This document shows, one piece after another, positions 7,833-15,133 of a DNA stretch of 64,000 bases (position 1 is the stretch's first letter; every line of letters starts with the position of its first letter). The notes beneath the pieces are model-generated. The model saw only the letters and a program-made list of their open reading frames with translations, ran no database searches and was not told the origin of the DNA. This DNA comes from Epilithonimonas caeni DSM 17710. Lineage in GTDB: Bacteria; Bacteroidota; Bacteroidia; Flavobacteriales; Weeksellaceae. The translations under genes and the position numbers were made by a program. The stretch spans positions 62,001 through 126,000 of the forward strand of contig NZ_AUFK01000019.1 in the NCBI RefSeq assembly GCF_000426465.1, read 5' to 3'.

Positions 7833-7985
7833 CACAAGGAACACAAAAGTTTCTTTTCATTAGCATCAGATCAAGGCATAAGAAAAATCAAAGATTTTCA
7901 ATTTTTAAAATATCCGAGCTTAGTGCCTTAAAAACATATATACTAAAAACAATTCATCGTGCCTTTGTGTTATTTTAAATGCAAA
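7833..7985. repeat. Intergenic repeat module, copy 2
   Basis: Contains GCACAAGGAACACAAAAG, then AGGCATAAGAAAAATCAAAG, then TTAGTGCCTTAAAAAC, then CCTTTGTGTTATTTTAAATG. Block order and spacing match the module at 5390-5532. Confidence 0.65.
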
Positions 7986-8077
7986 ATATCTTAAAATATA
8001 CTTTTCTTAAACCAGTTTAAGTTTTTCCCATTATCGATTCCCCAACTTTGTATCAACAAATTAAAACAATCAAAACA

Positions 8078-8524
8078 ATGGAAAAACGTATCAACATCCA
8101 CGCAACAGAACCTCAAGCTTACAAAGCAATGTTAGGACTCGAAGGTTATCTTGCTCAGTCGGAAATTTCAAAGACGATTAAAGAGCTCATCAAAATCAGA
8201 GCTTCCCAAATCAATGGTTGTGCCTATTGTCTGGATATGCACACCAAAGACGCTATCAAATATGGCGAAACTGCTGAAAGGATCTTCCTGGTAAGTGCTT
8301 GGCACGAAGCAGACAAATTCTTCACAGAAGAGGAAAAAGTGGCGCTTAAAATGACCGAAGAAATCACATTGATCAGCCAAAACGGTCTTAGTGATGAGAC
8401 TTATCAAAAAGCAAAATCTATCTTCTCCGAGAAACAAATCGCTGAAATCATTATGGCAATTGTAACCATCAATTCCTGGAACAGAATTGCATTAAGTACA
8501 AAACTGGAAATTGGTGAATTTTAA
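8078..8524 (+). CDS. AhpD-like alkylhydroperoxidase / carboxymuconolactone decarboxylase family
   Basis: A 148-residue all-helical AhpD-fold protein. The redox motif is C48-x-x-C51 followed by H55 (NGCAYCLDMH), which in AhpD-type enzymes reduces peroxides using a thiol donor. ATG at 8078 (MEKRINIHATEP) is chosen over a TTG ten codons upstream because it matches the usual family N-terminus. The gene follows a Crp/Fnr regulator, consistent with an oxidative or electrophile stress unit. A hairpin begins at the stop codon. Confidence 0.88.
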   Translation: MEKRINIHATEPQAYKAMLGLEGYLAQSEISKTIKELIKIRASQINGCAYCLDMHTKDAIKYGETAERIFLVSAWHEADKFFTEEEKVALKMTEEITLISQNGLSDETYQKAKSIFSEKQIAEIIMAIVTINSWNRIALSTKLEIGEF

Positions 8525-8527
8525 CCA

Positions 8528-8567
8528 AAAAGGTCTCGATGTCTTACCAAAAACGTCGAGACCTTTT
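8528..8567 (+). terminator. Hairpin after the AhpD-like gene
   Basis: A 12-bp perfect stem, AAAAGGTCTCGA / TCGAGACCTTTT, with a 16-base interior. It starts four bases after the stop and the right arm ends in TTTT, so it can act as a terminator. Confidence 0.65.
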
Positions 8568-8570
8568 GAT

Positions 8571-8633
8571 GAAAACGACGGGAGGTTTTGGACAAAACGA
8601 CAGGAGGTTTTAGGTAAAAGGTCCTGTCGTTTT
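8571..8633. repeat. Tandem 22-base repeat with second hairpin
   Basis: Two adjacent near-identical units, GAAAACGACGGGAGGTTTTG (8571-8590) and CAAAACGACAGGAGGTTTTA (8593-8612). The second also forms a 12-bp stem with 8622-8633 (AAAACGACAGGA / TCCTGTCGTTTT). Confidence 0.7.
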
Positions 8634-8684
8634 TATGAAATCTGCAAACGTCCTGTTCATCGGACTTTCAGAAGCTGCTTTTCT

Positions 8685-8806
8685 TCAGGAGATAGCATTA
8701 TTGAAAGTTTTCTCAAGGCTCAGTTTTTATTGTCAATTTTCGAAGCAAATGTTCTGATGATTTTCAGGGCCAGAATTTCATCATCCATGGCAATTGCTTT
8801 TATCAT
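8685..8806 (-). pseudogene. LytTR-type response regulator, N-terminal remnant with frameshift
   Basis: Reading leftward from ATG at 8806, three bases after the kinase stop, the frame gives MIKAIAMDDEILALKIIRTF, the classic start of a LytR/AlgR-type receiver (acidic pair DDE). It stops at a TGA after residue 28. Shifting frame at the T5 run (8724-8728, a run of A on the coding strand) continues the receiver as LSLEKTFNNAIS before another stop. The phosphoacceptor Asp region, the rest of the receiver and the LytTR DNA-binding domain are missing; the sequence to the left is the hairpin/repeat block. This is a decayed partner of the adjacent kinase. Confidence 0.75.
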
Positions 8807-8809
8807 ACG

Positions 8810-9985
8810 CTAAGAACCGAGATCAAGGTCTAGCTCTATAAAGTATGATTTCTTATTTTCTTCGATCTTCAGAGAATATTTTCCCTGGTAAAGTTTTTCC
8901 AGACGTTCCGTCGTATTTTTCATACCCAGTTTTGTGGATTCGTCCGTAACGGAATGATTAACGATATTATTAAAAACCTTGAAATTCAGTTTTTCCCCAT
9001 CAAGCTTCACATCAATTGATATTTTTGAGTATTCTTCTGCATTATAACCATATCTGAAGGCATTTTCAATGAAGTTCAAAAGAATCATCGGAACGATTCT
9101 AACCTCATCTGTAACTCCATTTTCTGTGTAAGTAAAATCTAGGCTATTATCCGTTCTTATAAGCTGCAATGCTAAATAATCCTTGATATAGAATAACTCT
9201 TTGGAGAGCGGCACAAAATCACTTTCGCTCTCTTCCAAGATATAGCGCATTACATTGGAAAGTTTCAGAACTCCTTCCGATGCATCATCAGGTTTTATCA
9301 AAATCAGAGAATAAATAGAATCAAGTGTATTGAAAAGAAAATCTGGTTGAAGCTGATAACGGAGATTTAGCAGATCTGCTTTGGCCCTGGCACGTTCCAT
9401 CTCTTTTCTTTTTATAGACTGGTGTAGAAAAAATGAGCTGAGAAAGGAAAATAAGAACGGTAAAATCCCGGACACGTATTTTCTAGAAAAAGAGTCTTCT
9501 TTGCCCATCAATTTTGGAGGAGGAAAACCCTTTCTATGAGGTCGCATTTTGGATGGTGGCTCCAGATACTCTTTTTCAAAATATGCTCTCTTTTGTGGGG
9601 AAACATATTCTAGTGGCGGTGGAAAATCTTCAGATCTGATATGGATTTTTTTATCATTCGATATCTGATCCTGGAAAAAATTGAAACGAAGACTACGGTG
9701 ATTATCCGGAAAAATAAAAAATGGAAGCGTGCAGATCCATATATAGGAAACAAAAATACCGACCCAATAAAGCAAAAGTTTCCTCTTGTCATATAATTTT
9801 GGCAGAAGAAAAAACAAATTCAGATAGAAAAAAACGATGAGAAGAACATATCTGGAAAAATCTCTCTGGAAAAAGGTCGAGCCCAACAAACGCAAACTAC
9901 TATCTAATTCCGGCGACGATAAGACTGGAATCAACAAAAGAAGTAAGATCAATACAATGTGATAATAGATATTTTTGTTTTTCAC
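8810..9985 (-). CDS. LytS/YehU-type sensor histidine kinase, phosphoacceptor His replaced by Asp
   Basis: A 391-residue membrane protein: four hydrophobic segments in the first 90 residues and again near 165-185, then a His_kinase/HATPase module. The family motif around the phosphorylated His, normally NPHFLFN, reads QPDFLFN here (Asp215, codon GAT, one base from CAT). Further on are an N-box-like NFIENAFRYG and a C-terminal KLGMKNTTERLEKLY matching the G-box region. The start is GTG at 9985; an in-frame TAG lies just upstream and no ATG fits. The response regulator gene downstream is a fragment. The protein probably cannot phosphorylate by the usual route, though a stop-free frame suggests recent loss or another role. 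Confidence 0.82.
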   Translation of the reverse strand: MKNKNIYYHIVLILLLLLIPVLSSPELDSSLRLLGSTFFQRDFSRYVLLIVFFYLNLFFLLPKLYDKRKLLLYWVGIFVSYIWICTLPFFIFPDNHRSLRFNFFQDQISNDKKIHIRSEDFPPPLEYVSPQKRAYFEKEYLEPPSKMRPHRKGFPPPKLMGKEDSFSRKYVSGILPFLFSFLSSFFLHQSIKRKEMERARAKADLLNLRYQLQPDFLFNTLDSIYSLILIKPDDASEGVLKLSNVMRYILEESESDFVPLSKELFYIKDYLALQLIRTDNSLDFTYTENGVTDEVRIVPMILLNFIENAFRYGYNAEEYSKISIDVKLDGEKLNFKVFNNIVNHSVTDESTKLGMKNTTERLEKLYQGKYSLKIEENKKSYFIELDLDLGS

Positions 9986-10146: not shown

Positions 10147-12285
10147 TTATTTGATGAAACCCCTGCTTCTAAGAAGTGGTTTTATATCGGCTTTGTGACC
10201 CGTAAACTCTTCAAAAGCCTTGTTCAGATCTACACTGTTACCAACTGAAAGAATATACTTTCTAAATCTGTCGCCATTCTCTCTCTTGATCCCGCCGTTA
10301 GCTTTTATCCATTCCCAAGCATCAGAATCCAAGGTCTCTGACCAAAGATAAGCATAATATCCAGCAGAATACCCACCGCCCCAAATATGTGCAAAATAAG
10401 GCGTGTGATATCTTGGCGGAACTTGTGGAACTAACAATCCGTATCTGGACAAAGCTTGTTTTTCAAAATCAAGAACAGGGATCAGCTGGCTGTCAGAAGT
10501 CACTGTATGCCAGTTCATATCCAAAGTCGCTGCGGCTACCAGTTCTGTTGTTGCGTAACCCTGGTTGAAGTTTGACGCTTTCTTGATTTTGTCTATCAAA
10601 GCTTGAGGCATCGGCTGCTTGGTCTGATAATGCAAAGCATAATTTTTCAGAATTTCCGGCTCCAATGCAAAATGCTCATTGATCTGGGACGGAAATTCCA
10701 CAAAGTCTCTCGGTGTATTAGCTCCCGAAATGGATGCATATTTCTGGTTGGCAAACAAGCCGTGTAAAGTATGCCCAAACTCGTGGAACATTGTCTCCAC
10801 ATCGTCATAAGAAATCAAAGAAGGTTTTCCTGGCGCAGGTTTCTGATAATTGAAAACATTTACTATGACCGGCTTTTGTCCCAACAGATGAGACTGGGGA
10901 ACAAAATTGTTCATCCAGGCACCACCGCTTTTGTTACTTCTTGTATAAAAATCAAGATAATATAATGCTAAAGATTTGCCGTCTCGGTCGAAAACCTCAT
11001 AGGCCACAACATCCGGATGATAAACAGGAAGGTCTTTTCTTTCCTTAAAAGTGATTCCGTAGAATTGTTCCGCAGCATAGAAAACCCCTTTTTCCAAAAC
11101 AGTTGTTACCTCAAAATAAGGTTTGATCTCGTTCTCATCGAGGTCATATTTTGCTTTTCTAACCTGTTCAGAATAGAAATTCCAATCCCAAGGCTCCACT
11201 TTGAAACCACCATTCTGAGAATCGATCAAGTCCTGGATTTCTTTTGCTTCACGATTCGCTGTTTCAACTGCAGGTTTTGCCAATTGTGCCAAAAGTCCCA
11301 TTGCAGCCTCCGGCGTTTTTGCCATTTGGTCTTGCAGACTCCATTCAGCGAAGTTTTTCTTTCCGAACAATTGTGCTTTTTGCAATCTTAATTTTGCTAA
11401 TTTCTCAACCGTTTCGCGCGTATCATTCTCGTCACCTTTTTCTGCTCTTGTCCAAGATGCTTTGAAGAGTTTTTCTCTAGTTGCTCTATTTTTGAGGTTC
11501 TGCAAAAGAGGTTGTTGTGTTGTATTCTGCAGAGCCAAAAGATATTTTCCTTTTTGTCCGGCTTGTTCCGCATCTGTTGCAGCAGCAGCAATTTCATCAG
11601 CAGAAAGTCCGTCCAACTCCTTGACATCAGAGATCAGAACTCCTCCCTTTTTTCTGGCTTCCAGCAATTTGCTGCTGAATTGTGTTGCCAAAGTGGCCAA
11701 TTGCTGGTTGATCTCCTTCAGTTTTTCCTTTTTATCAACAGAAAGATTGGCTCCGGCCAATTCAAAATTGGTAATGTAAAATTCCGTCAATCTTTTGCTT
11801 TCTGGGTCTAATTTATCCGTTTCAACAACTTTTAATTTTTTGTAAAGCTTATCATTCAAATAGATCTTATCCGAGTGGGAGGCAAAAATCGGTGCATATT
11901 CTTCTTCTAATTTCTGAAGATTATCATTCGTATTAGAACTTGTCAAATTGTAGAAAAGAATCGTTGCTCTTCCAAGTATTTCCCCACTATTCTCCAAAGC
12001 TAAAACCGTATTCTCAAAAGTTGGGGAAGCTTTGTCATTTACAATTTTATCGATGTTGGCCAATTGCTCTTTCAAACCAGATTCAAAAGCGGGTTTGAAA
12101 TGTTCATCCTTTATTTTATCAAATTCCGGAGCTTGATACTGCAACGGACTTTTTTTAAGAAATGGATTGTCTTTCATAGATTTTTCTGTGATAGCAGAAG
12201 CTTTTTTCTGCTGAGCATTTATCATCATATTTCCTGCACCAAATGCAATGAATGTGACAAGTAAGGTGGTTTTTATTTCCTTCAT
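10147..12285 (-). CDS. M3 family zinc metallopeptidase (oligopeptidase A / Dcp-like), exported
   Basis: A 712-residue M3 peptidase with an N-terminal signal peptide (MKEIKTTLLVTFIAFGAG to INAQ). The zinc site is H501-E502-F503-G504-H505 within MFHEFGHTLHGLF, with the third ligand expected about 28 residues later, consistent with SQINEH. The length and the PQVPPRYHTPYFAHIWGGGY segment fit peptidyl-dipeptidase Dcp / oligopeptidase A, which cleave short peptides. Periplasmic location is inferred from the signal. ATG at 12285 is used; an upstream in-frame start at 12336 would bury the signal peptide and overlap the PhyH gene. Only five bases separate it from the PhyH stop, so the two may be co-transcribed. 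Confidence 0.9.
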   Translation of the reverse strand: MKEIKTTLLVTFIAFGAGNMMINAQQKKASAITEKSMKDNPFLKKSPLQYQAPEFDKIKDEHFKPAFESGLKEQLANIDKIVNDKASPTFENTVLALENSGEILGRATILFYNLTSSNTNDNLQKLEEEYAPIFASHSDKIYLNDKLYKKLKVVETDKLDPESKRLTEFYITNFELAGANLSVDKKEKLKEINQQLATLATQFSSKLLEARKKGGVLISDVKELDGLSADEIAAAATDAEQAGQKGKYLLALQNTTQQPLLQNLKNRATREKLFKASWTRAEKGDENDTRETVEKLAKLRLQKAQLFGKKNFAEWSLQDQMAKTPEAAMGLLAQLAKPAVETANREAKEIQDLIDSQNGGFKVEPWDWNFYSEQVRKAKYDLDENEIKPYFEVTTVLEKGVFYAAEQFYGITFKERKDLPVYHPDVVAYEVFDRDGKSLALYYLDFYTRSNKSGGAWMNNFVPQSHLLGQKPVIVNVFNYQKPAPGKPSLISYDDVETMFHEFGHTLHGLFANQKYASISGANTPRDFVEFPSQINEHFALEPEILKNYALHYQTKQPMPQALIDKIKKASNFNQGYATTELVAAATLDMNWHTVTSDSQLIPVLDFEKQALSRYGLLVPQVPPRYHTPYFAHIWGGGYSAGYYAYLWSETLDSDAWEWIKANGGIKRENGDRFRKYILSVGNSVDLNKAFEEFTGHKADIKPLLRSRGFIK

Positions 12286-12290
12286 ATATT

Positions 12291-13226
12291 TTAATTTTCG
12301 AAAAGAGCTGGTCTTTGGGTAATTTCGTGATAACAAACCGAGTTTTCATCAAAAAAATGAAACACCATACTTTTTCGAGTTTTATCTTTATTGGTATGCG
12401 GTTCTCCTCCATGTAAAACATTGGCATGCCAGATCAGCATATCTCCTTTTTTACATTCGAAGATTTCTTTTTTAAGGTCTAATTCTTTAACTTTTTCCTG
12501 GAGCATCAATTCGTAACCTTTGTTTCCTTTATTGCCCAGCATCCAAAAATTACCTTCATTGTCGTAATCAGAGTTCATATAATAAGGTAATTTGTGACTT
12601 TTGGGATAATAATGAAGTGCGCCCTGATCAGCCTTTATATCTTCCAGCGCAATCCATACACCGATCAGTCCACCAACTGGGAATGTGGTCATATGGATAC
12701 TATCCGAATGTGTTTTCTGCTGGCTTCCATTAATAAAATTGATACTTTGAAAGAGCTTGGTCTTTCCATCTAATAAAATATCGAGCAGGTCTAATAAAGA
12801 TTTCTCCAAACCTATTTCCTTGATAATTTCTGACTTATGCAGAGCAAACATGAGTTTATTTCCATATTTGAATTTAATCTCGTTGCTATCCAGAAGTTTC
12901 TGAATCTCCGAATTAACTTGATCGGCTTGCTCTGCCGATATAAAACTTTTGATAACACTGTACCCATTATCAAAAAAATGCAAAAGACTTTGCTGATTTT
13001 CCACGGTCTGATCTTTATAGAAATCTGTTTTGAGAATGGCCTCAGTATCTTCCTTTCTTACAAATTGAGATTCTATTTTTCTAAAGTCCTTGCTAGAAAT
13101 AGGAGAAAAATAACTTTTGTTGATTTTGTATTTTTTGTAAAGAGGAATATTGTGCTGTAATTTCTTTTTATTGAAAATATTGAAAAATGCGTAGCTTAAT
13201 TTACTGTTCTTAATCAACGAGATCAT
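12291..13226 (-). CDS. Phytanoyl-CoA dioxygenase (PhyH) family protein
   Basis: Fe(II)/2-oxoglutarate-dependent oxygenase of 311 residues. The metal triad is visible as H173-S-D175 (KTHSDSIHM) and the distal His in NVLHGGEPH. Arg in KTRKSMVFHF would bind 2-oxoglutarate. The aromatic-rich GALHYYPKSHKLPYY segment is typical of PhyH enzymes acting on small molecules. The substrate cannot be told from sequence. The first 90 residues are Lys/Phe-rich and not clearly part of the fold. The gene lies five bases upstream of the M3 peptidase gene and downstream of the antiporter gene on the same strand. Confidence 0.82.
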   Translation of the reverse strand: MISLIKNSKLSYAFFNIFNKKKLQHNIPLYKKYKINKSYFSPISSKDFRKIESQFVRKEDTEAILKTDFYKDQTVENQQSLLHFFDNGYSVIKSFISAEQADQVNSEIQKLLDSNEIKFKYGNKLMFALHKSEIIKEIGLEKSLLDLLDILLDGKTKLFQSINFINGSQQKTHSDSIHMTTFPVGGLIGVWIALEDIKADQGALHYYPKSHKLPYYMNSDYDNEGNFWMLGNKGNKGYELMLQEKVKELDLKKEIFECKKGDMLIWHANVLHGGEPHTNKDKTRKSMVFHFFDENSVCYHEITQRPALFEN

Positions 13227-13282: not shown

Positions 13283-15133
13283 TTATTTATCTTCGTCGTC
13301 TTCCCCACTCCAGTGGTTTTCCTCGAAAGAAATACTGTCCAGAGCCAACAACTCGGCCTCACGCTCCAGAGATTCGCGAAGTGTAAATGTGATCATCTCT
13401 TTATCCTTCTCTTTCGCCAATCTTCTCGTCATGGCTTTGTCAATCAGCATAAAACGCTTGCCCATTCTGCGGGCAGTATATTTTCTCATCCCGTTCTCCT
13501 GCAGAATGTCGACCGCCATATCCACAGCAGTCCCCAGTGTCTCCCTATAGATATGACTGACATTCTTATTAAGGAAATCGTAGGCATCCAAACGGTTTTT
13601 GGCCCTTACAAATATCTTGAGTCCGGGATAATTTTCTTTGGCGTAATCCACCAGAAATCTATTTTTCTCCGGGTCATCCAGACAAAGCACAAGAAGTTCC
13701 GCATCCTCTATTCCTGCAGCTCTTAACAAAGCCGGCTTTGTTGCATCACCGTAATATACGTTAAAACCATTCGACCTCAAAAGAGCGACCCTGTCCGGGT
13801 CATTATCCAAAACCGTGGAGCGGATTCCGTTGGCTTTCAAAAGACGCCCGACCGTACTTCCAAAAAAACCGAATCCTACAATTATGATCTTACGTTGTTT
13901 GATGATTCCGAGTTCTATATTTTCCTCGGTCTTTTGCTTTATAAATCGTTTGTCCAGAATCTTCTCCTTGAAAATCAAAAGTAATGGGGACATACACATC
14001 GTGATCGCAACAATCGCCATTAATTCCGAATTTGCCTGATAATCGATCAGGTATAAACTCGCCGCGAAATTGACCAAGACAAAAGCAAATTCTCCAACTT
14101 GTGACAAAGCAAAAGCCAGAAAAAAACTTTGTTCATTGTTCATCTTGTAATACTTCCCGATTCCAAACAGAACGACAGCTTTGATAGCCAAAACAATAAA
14201 TGCCGCAGAAAAGATAAAGAAAGGCTTCGAAGCAATAATATCAAAGTTAATAGTTGCACCGACGCTTACGAAAAACACGGCCAACAATAATCCTTTGAAT
14301 GGGTCGATGTCGCTTTCCAATTCGTGGCGGAACTCACTGTTTGCAAGCATAACACCTGCGATGAAAGCACCTAAAGCAGGACTTAGTCCAACAGAAATCA
14401 TCAATTCTGAAACGCCGATAACTAGAAATAAAGAAGCGGCCGTCAATAATTCATTTAAACCAGATTTTGATACAAATCTCAGGAACGGAATGAAAATATA
14501 TTTTCCTAAAAGTATTAATGCCAAAACCCCCAGAATAACTGTAAATGGCTGTAACCATTCCGGCAGATATTGCAGTAATATTTTTTCATGCTCAGCTTGG
14601 GATAACGCTTTTTGAGACTTGGACAAGAAAGGCAATAATGCCAGAATCGGAATGACAGCAATATCCTGAAATAAAAGGATTGAAAAAGAAGATTCTCCGC
14701 TAACTGTCCTGAAAAGATTCTTTTCTTTCAAAGTCTGTAAAACAATCGCAGTGGATGACATTGCAAAACAAAGCGAGATAATGAATGACTTTTTCAATCC
14801 AAACCCTGCAATATAAAAAACAATGAAGATCCCAATGATACTTAATAACATCTGACTAAGACCCAATCCAAGAATCCGCTTTCTGATCTGCCAGAGTTTC
14901 TGAGGTTCCAGTTCCAGTCCCACCAAAAACAACAGCATGATCACGCCCAATTCCGAAGCATGCATGATATCTTCCGCATCTCTTCCTGTCAGTTGCAGAC
15001 AGAACGGACCGATCAAAATCCCACCAAGAATATATCCGATGACCGAACTCAACCCAAGTTTTTTTCCTAACGGAACCATAATAATGGCCGCTCCAAGAAA
15101 AATCAGGATTGTCATTGCAATAGAGTTCTGCAT
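13283..15133 (-). CDS. CPA2 K+/H+ antiporter, KefB/KefC-like
   Basis: A 616-residue integral membrane protein. About 12 hydrophobic segments occupy residues 1-385 (Na_H_Exchanger fold; for example GYILGGILIGPFCLQL and SVGLSPALGAFIAGVMLANS). A cytosolic Rossmann domain of TrkA-N type follows near residues 405-530 (KIIIVGFGFFGSTVGRLL, then VLDNDPDRV). This is the Kef arrangement, releasing K+ in exchange for H+ under ligand control, often as protection against electrophiles. Its start abuts the stop of a KefF-like gene (TAGATG), so the two form a translationally coupled pair. Confidence 0.9.
   Translation of the reverse strand: MQNSIAMTILIFLGAAIIMVPLGKKLGLSSVIGYILGGILIGPFCLQLTGRDAEDIMHASELGVIMLLFLVGLELEPQKLWQIRKRILGLGLSQMLLSIIGIFIVFYIAGFGLKKSFIISLCFAMSSTAIVLQTLKEKNLFRTVSGESSFSILLFQDIAVIPILALLPFLSKSQKALSQAEHEKILLQYLPEWLQPFTVILGVLALILLGKYIFIPFLRFVSKSGLNELLTAASLFLVIGVSELMISVGLSPALGAFIAGVMLANSEFRHELESDIDPFKGLLLAVFFVSVGATINFDIIASKPFFIFSAAFIVLAIKAVVLFGIGKYYKMNNEQSFFLAFALSQVGEFAFVLVNFAASLYLIDYQANSELMAIVAITMCMSPLLLIFKEKILDKRFIKQKTEENIELGIIKQRKIIIVGFGFFGSTVGRLLKANGIRSTVLDNDPDRVALLRSNGFNVYYGDATKPALLRAAGIEDAELLVLCLDDPEKNRFLVDYAKENYPGLKIFVRAKNRLDAYDFLNKNVSHIYRETLGTAVDMAVDILQENGMRKYTARRMGKRFMLIDKAMTRRLAKEKDKEMITFTLRESLEREAELLALDSISFEENHWSGEDDEDK

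Follow-up and report, generated by a model that had tools for sequence, protein, structure and literature searches.

Kinases of the LytS/YehU (BtsS) type form two-component systems with LytTR regulators (PF06580 and PF04397 domains, respectively). In BtsS, the site that is phosphorylated is His382, and the H382Q protein is not phosphorylated (PMC10653868). The kinase gene described here has in common with these systems a membrane sensor and a His_kinase transmitter with a PHFLFN-type H-box, but whereas orthologues in systems of this type adjoin a LytTR regulator, this locus has an aspartate at the phosphoacceptor position and a mere stub of the regulator. The Caulobacter pseudo-histidine kinase DivL is like our protein in having a histidine-kinase fold that lacks a phosphorylatable histidine; its tyrosine at that site is conserved in most alpha-proteobacterial homologues, and DivL senses DivK~P without catalysis and has a demonstrated role in cell fate (PMC4211667). 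In Wolbachia, two-component genes are decaying, pleC being a pseudogene and cckA/pleD being split (PMC4426382). The likeness to Wolbachia and streamlined bacteria is that one partner of a two-component pair is degraded; unlike Wolbachia, Epilithonimonas has a large signalling repertoire, and the kinase retains an open frame and has lost its motif alone. A search of the literature for orphan kinases and kinases with a degenerate phosphoacceptor site found nothing related.

The gene lies in a stretch of 64,000 nucleotides, here called the window, from the 4.1-Mb genome (G000) of a member of the genus Epilithonimonas, referred to below as the window species. The gene and the two H-box codons discussed below are as follows, with positions counted from the first letter of the window.

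8810..9985, minus strand: orphan LytS/YehU-type sensor kinase gene, 391 aa, GTG start (recognised by its open reading frame, Pfam match, and orthologues)
9341..9343, minus strand: codon 215, GAT (Asp), the phosphoacceptor site, which is His in the orthologues of six congeners
9320..9322, minus strand: codon 222, encoding Asp; Asn in all other orthologues, that of E. hungarica included

The kinase is encoded in one open frame, with the motif stretch NLRYQLQPDFLFNTLDSIYSL, and consists of an N-terminal membrane domain, whose linker is variable and rich in proline, and a C-terminal His_kinase/ATPase transmitter. The PF06580 His_kinase profile matches residues 204-281 (E = 1.3e-21; 77 bits against a cut-off of 25.2) over profile positions 2-80 of 81. 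The H-box reads QPDFLFNTLDS; the phosphoacceptor His of P-H-F-x-F-N is absent, Asp215 stands in its place, and a further Asp follows at 222. Judged by descent, the protein is a member of PF06580, and judged by its motif it would not be a competent histidine kinase. Because Asp replaces the counterpart of BtsS His382, we predict that it should be unable to autophosphorylate. At the level of sequence, the ATP-binding N-box (ENAF.YG) is kept as NFIENAFRYG, with a single Lys-to-Arg change.

An earlier reading of the DNA, made from the sequence alone, had reported Asp215 within QPDFLFN in a kinase that was otherwise intact and free of stops. The 391-aa frame does read Asp at 215 and, like its counterpart in E. 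hungarica, contains neither stops nor frameshifts, but the rest of the protein is not untouched: on the branch leading to the window species, 13 transmitter positions that never vary among the six background species, including Asn222, are altered, and the conserved Pro preceding GKYSL (residue 367 in this protein) has become Gln.

The nearest named orthologues are those of E. hungarica DSM 19684 (G006; 86% identity) and E. hispanica (G004; 80%), and a search of the genus found a kinase match in nine other genomes. Full-length orthologues in G003, G004, G007, G013, G015, and G016, which are 71-81% identical to the window protein, carry QPHFLFNTLNS. The motif of E. hungarica is HPHFLFDTLNS, in which the His is kept, the invariant motif Asn has become Asp, and the Gln at the start of the H-box has become His. 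G009 has only a distant paralogue (39% identity), and homologues in another genus of the family (L055 and L056) have His too. The alignment with close relatives that the sequence-only reading had proposed thus places His at position 215 in six congeners. That reading had also held that the substitution would be functional if close relatives shared the Asp beside a full-length regulator; instead, it is the orthologues with His that hold intact regulators. Since the Asp form of the motif has two matches in 395 Bacteroidia genomes, the window gene being one of them, against about 115 matches of the His form in 40 Bacteroidia genomes with the same pattern, Asp215 is not chance background.

Asp215 is a single base away from His, and the codon could in principle be an artefact of sequencing or assembly that makes a functional kinase look damaged, a concern already voiced in the sequence-only reading. 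We regard this as hardly credible, because the regulator is missing whatever codon 215 reads, Asn222 and other invariant transmitter sites are changed too, and the genome has a completeness rating of 100% and a contamination value of 0.01.

In each of the six His-bearing genomes, an intact regulator of 226 aa with REC and LytTR domains adjoins the kinase gene, starting 3 nt past the end of the kinase gene (2 nt in G003), and is followed by a Dioxygenase_C gene and then by a gene with a quercetinase C-terminal cupin domain. Beside the window kinase, a LytTR response regulator is absent save for a stub, and the surroundings are the following.

8720..8806, minus strand: stub that remains of the cognate LytTR response regulator, comprising 28 codons (MIKAIAMDDEILALKIIRTFASKIDNKN) and a stop codon; it begins 3 nt downstream of the kinase stop
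8525..8665, no strand: deletion-junction sequence with hairpin-forming inverted repeats at 8528-8567 and 8594-8633, standing where the regulator, dioxygenase, and quercetinase-like genes would otherwise lie
8048..8524, plus strand: carboxymuconolactone-decarboxylase (CMD)-family (AhpD-like) gene, which adjoins the stub and marks the far side of the deletion, lying beyond the two lost genes in most relatives
10147..12336, minus strand: upstream neighbour of the kinase, which we take to be an M3-type peptidase gene; conserved in all orthologous loci, it marks the intact side

Similarity to the intact regulator can be detected over 8666-8806, with one TGA within; in E. hungarica, the stub has lost its start codon and carries small deletions. 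Both orthologues with a damaged motif therefore hold a regulator stub, whereas the six with His hold the intact gene, and in both G000 and E. hungarica an identical junction sequence leads from the stub into the CMD-family gene. The order kinase-regulator-dioxygenase-quercetinase-CMD gene, seen in most relatives, is reduced in these two species to kinase-stub-CMD gene. By comparison with G013 and G016, we estimate that the deletion measured roughly 2.3 kb; it took the dioxygenase gene, the quercetinase-like gene, and most of the regulator. Elsewhere in G000 and E. hungarica there is no intact orthologue of the regulator, only paralogues of at most 45% identity, and neither genome has an orthologue of the dioxygenase or quercetinase-like gene, the sole match in G000 being 32% over 66 residues. 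All ten other PF06580 genes of G000 have a regulator match within about 2 kb, so the window kinase is the one orphan among its His_kinase genes. Loss of the regulator, which the sequence-only reading had supposed, is thus established by the truncated stub, the junction held in common with E. hungarica, and the lack of a copy elsewhere in the genome.

The junction sits between the convergent kinase and CMD-family genes, and its two inverted repeats (18-19 nt, with loops of 2-4 nt) fold strongly (z = -4.9). A single further site in the genome (C2:412416-412510) has weak partial copies of them, and the repeats are possibly a bidirectional terminator or a small palindromic repeat. On the other side of the kinase, the window species and E. 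hungarica are alone in carrying an inserted gene (12291-13226 of the window), presumably phytanoyl-CoA-dioxygenase-like, that separates the antiporter gene from the M3-peptidase-like one; the neighbourhood of the kinase has therefore seen other gene gains and losses. In a third congener, G019, the same kinase-regulator pair has been broken up independently (L026, G019:C4:74500-91100, around 7917-8852): what is left is a kinase fragment with two in-frame TAG codons and a shortened regulator, and the dioxygenase gene is missing.

Selection on the kinase was estimated with a purpose-written branch codon model (GY-type, F3x4) over 374 gap-free codons from eight species, and the dN/dS comparison that the sequence-only reading had called for indeed found relaxed selection. 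Omega was 0.065 on the background and 0.268 on the two tips that lack the regulator (2dlnL = 40.1 relative to a single omega), so that purifying selection on the tips is not comparable to that on the functional orthologues; omega = 1 on the tips was rejected all the same (2dlnL = 38.8). Fitted separately, omega was 0.202 in G000, 0.394 in E. hungarica, and 0.055 on their common stem, the separate tip values being no better supported than one tip value (2dlnL = 1.1). The transmitter alone was relaxed about eight-fold in both lineages, from 0.031 to 0.256, and the membrane half went from 0.070 to 0.301. In the direct comparison of G000 with E. hungarica, the kinase gave an omega of 0.353, against 0.014-0.152 (median 0.044) for twelve neighbouring genes. 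Changes reconstructed by parsimony fell on 13 of 163 invariant and 5 of 36 variable transmitter sites in one lineage and on 8 of 163 and 3 of 36 in the other; in both, therefore, the frequency per site at positions invariant in the background is about that at variable positions. Within the G000 protein, the membrane half contrasts with the transmitter in that changes avoid invariant sites (1/95 versus 10/80; p = 0.003). Of the marks of a pseudogene, the gene thus shows relaxed selection, but neither an omega of 1 nor stops or frameshifts.

Overall, we favour early decay of an orphaned kinase whose frame is still open but which would have ceased to work in signalling, and give this explanation a probability of about 75%, because omega has risen from the background, the partner is missing, and the sister species has lost different residues. 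The window gene would be the left-over kinase of a LytS/LytTR two-component pair. Before the window species and E. hungarica diverged, a deletion would have removed nearly all of the regulator and the next two genes, and with the partner gone, selection on the transmitter domain would have relaxed. After the split, Asp would have taken the place of key H-box residues on each branch separately, of the phosphoacceptor His in the window species and of the motif Asn in E. hungarica. The deletion would on this account be the cause of the relaxation, and the protein would by now have lost its function. If so, the locus offers a clean, ordered example of a two-component system coming apart, in which regulator deletion common to two species was followed by full constraint on the stem and only then by relaxation of the transmitter in both and the loss of different H-box residues. 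It also provides a natural test of the fate of orphaned kinases, be it simple decay, silencing, or repurposing, and a warning for annotation, since such a gene should not be called a working sensor histidine kinase.

That the H-box was struck independently in both lineages (at His215 and, in E. hungarica, at the neighbouring Asn) would also be expected if inactivation had been favoured, that is, if the unpartnered kinase phosphorylated the wrong regulators and mutations silencing the H-box were selected in each lineage, with the rest of the gene merely tolerated. We consider this highly improbable: H-box changes are not significantly concentrated, accounting for 4 of 29 transmitter changes in a 13-residue test window (P = 0.12), just outside which the Gln-to-His change of E. 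hungarica falls.

Early decay is nevertheless not full decay, against which stand the tip omega well below 1, the intact frame, and the membrane domain that is still constrained in G000. The same observations would suit a phosphorylation-free role, in which a membrane sensor binds a non-cognate partner through its transmitter fold with no phosphotransfer, much as DivL works without kinase activity and with Tyr at the phosphorylation site (PMC4211667). G000 has LytTR proteins that could serve as such a partner, neither of them paired with a His_kinase gene.

G000:C1:422480-423154 (L041): REC-LytTR regulator beside a Dps-like gene, candidate partner
G000:C3:114766-115065 (L047): membrane protein with a LytTR domain, candidate partner

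These are candidates only, and no partner has been identified. Further, the two sister species have damaged different residues, so that no single derived state is conserved, invariant transmitter positions are hit as readily as variable ones, and both lineages were relaxed together. Unlike the Tyr of DivL, a non-His residue conserved between species, the Asp is private to the window species, the sister differs, and constraint has dropped by a factor of four to eight. We therefore judge a phosphorylation-free role unlikely, although it is the alternative we would take most seriously. Retention of the kinase for a phosphorylation-independent purpose, with the H-box eroding in two species while sensor and frame stay under selection, so that the protein would be a pseudo-histidine kinase in the making, is to our minds a similarly doubtful prospect, or marginally more so. 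Of the two outcomes between which the sequence-only reading did not choose, decay after loss of the regulator is thus supported by that loss and by the relaxed selection, and a phosphorylation-free role appears the less likely.

Another genus of Bacteroidia does conserve a LytS paralogue with the Asp form of the motif, next to a kinase and a regulator that are both intact, a parallel that speaks for a phosphorylation-free role. The second of the two Asp-form matches lies in G265, in a cassette made up of an intact kinase, the Asp-form kinase, and a LytTR regulator, and G571, a second species of the same genus, has the same arrangement, with the Asp and an altered N-box conserved. In both species (L054:3416-6305 on G265:C1; L058 on G571:C33), it is the second of the tandem kinases that has PDFLFN, with ENAFKED in the N-box as against ENAFKHG. 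Comparing G265 with G571 gives the Asp-form copy an omega of 0.31, the intact kinase one of 0.21, and the regulator one of 0.05. The Asp-form kinase of this cassette looks like a retained pseudokinase partner, perhaps forming a heterodimer with the first kinase, and its omega means that a value near 0.3 is by itself no proof of decay. PDFLFN in a LytS-type kinase is common to the cassette and the window gene; the conservation of Asp in two species, the altered N-box, and the adjoining intact kinase and regulator have no equivalent at the window locus.

The extent of the putative decay can be gauged from the missing stops. In simulations of full neutrality since the split, the G000 branch is expected to gain 6.1 stops and the E. 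hungarica branch 3.4, and none was observed; the probability of no stop is then 0.002 and 0.03, respectively. Were the gene neutral for about a fifth of the time, those probabilities would be an unremarkable 0.20 and 0.45. The stub and junction differ between the two species by several indels, whereas the kinase differs by one in-frame codon only. Since the kinase has no stops and an omega below 1 while its neighbouring sequence gained indels, it was under selection for part of the time after loss of the regulator, or still is. This fits either a recent fading of constraint or a weaker phosphorylation-free role that remains.

Synonymous divergence between G000 and E. hungarica is 0.21 in the kinase, below that of all twelve neighbours (0.31-1.5), and the two lineages may have exchanged this locus after they split. 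The timing of these events is accordingly blurred, because the low divergence of the kinase could reflect exchange between species. More generally, dS against E. hungarica is uneven along the region, from 1.5 in the Kef-type antiporter gene (13283-15133 of the window) to 0.2 in the kinase, a pattern that suggests patchwork recombination between the window species and E. hungarica.
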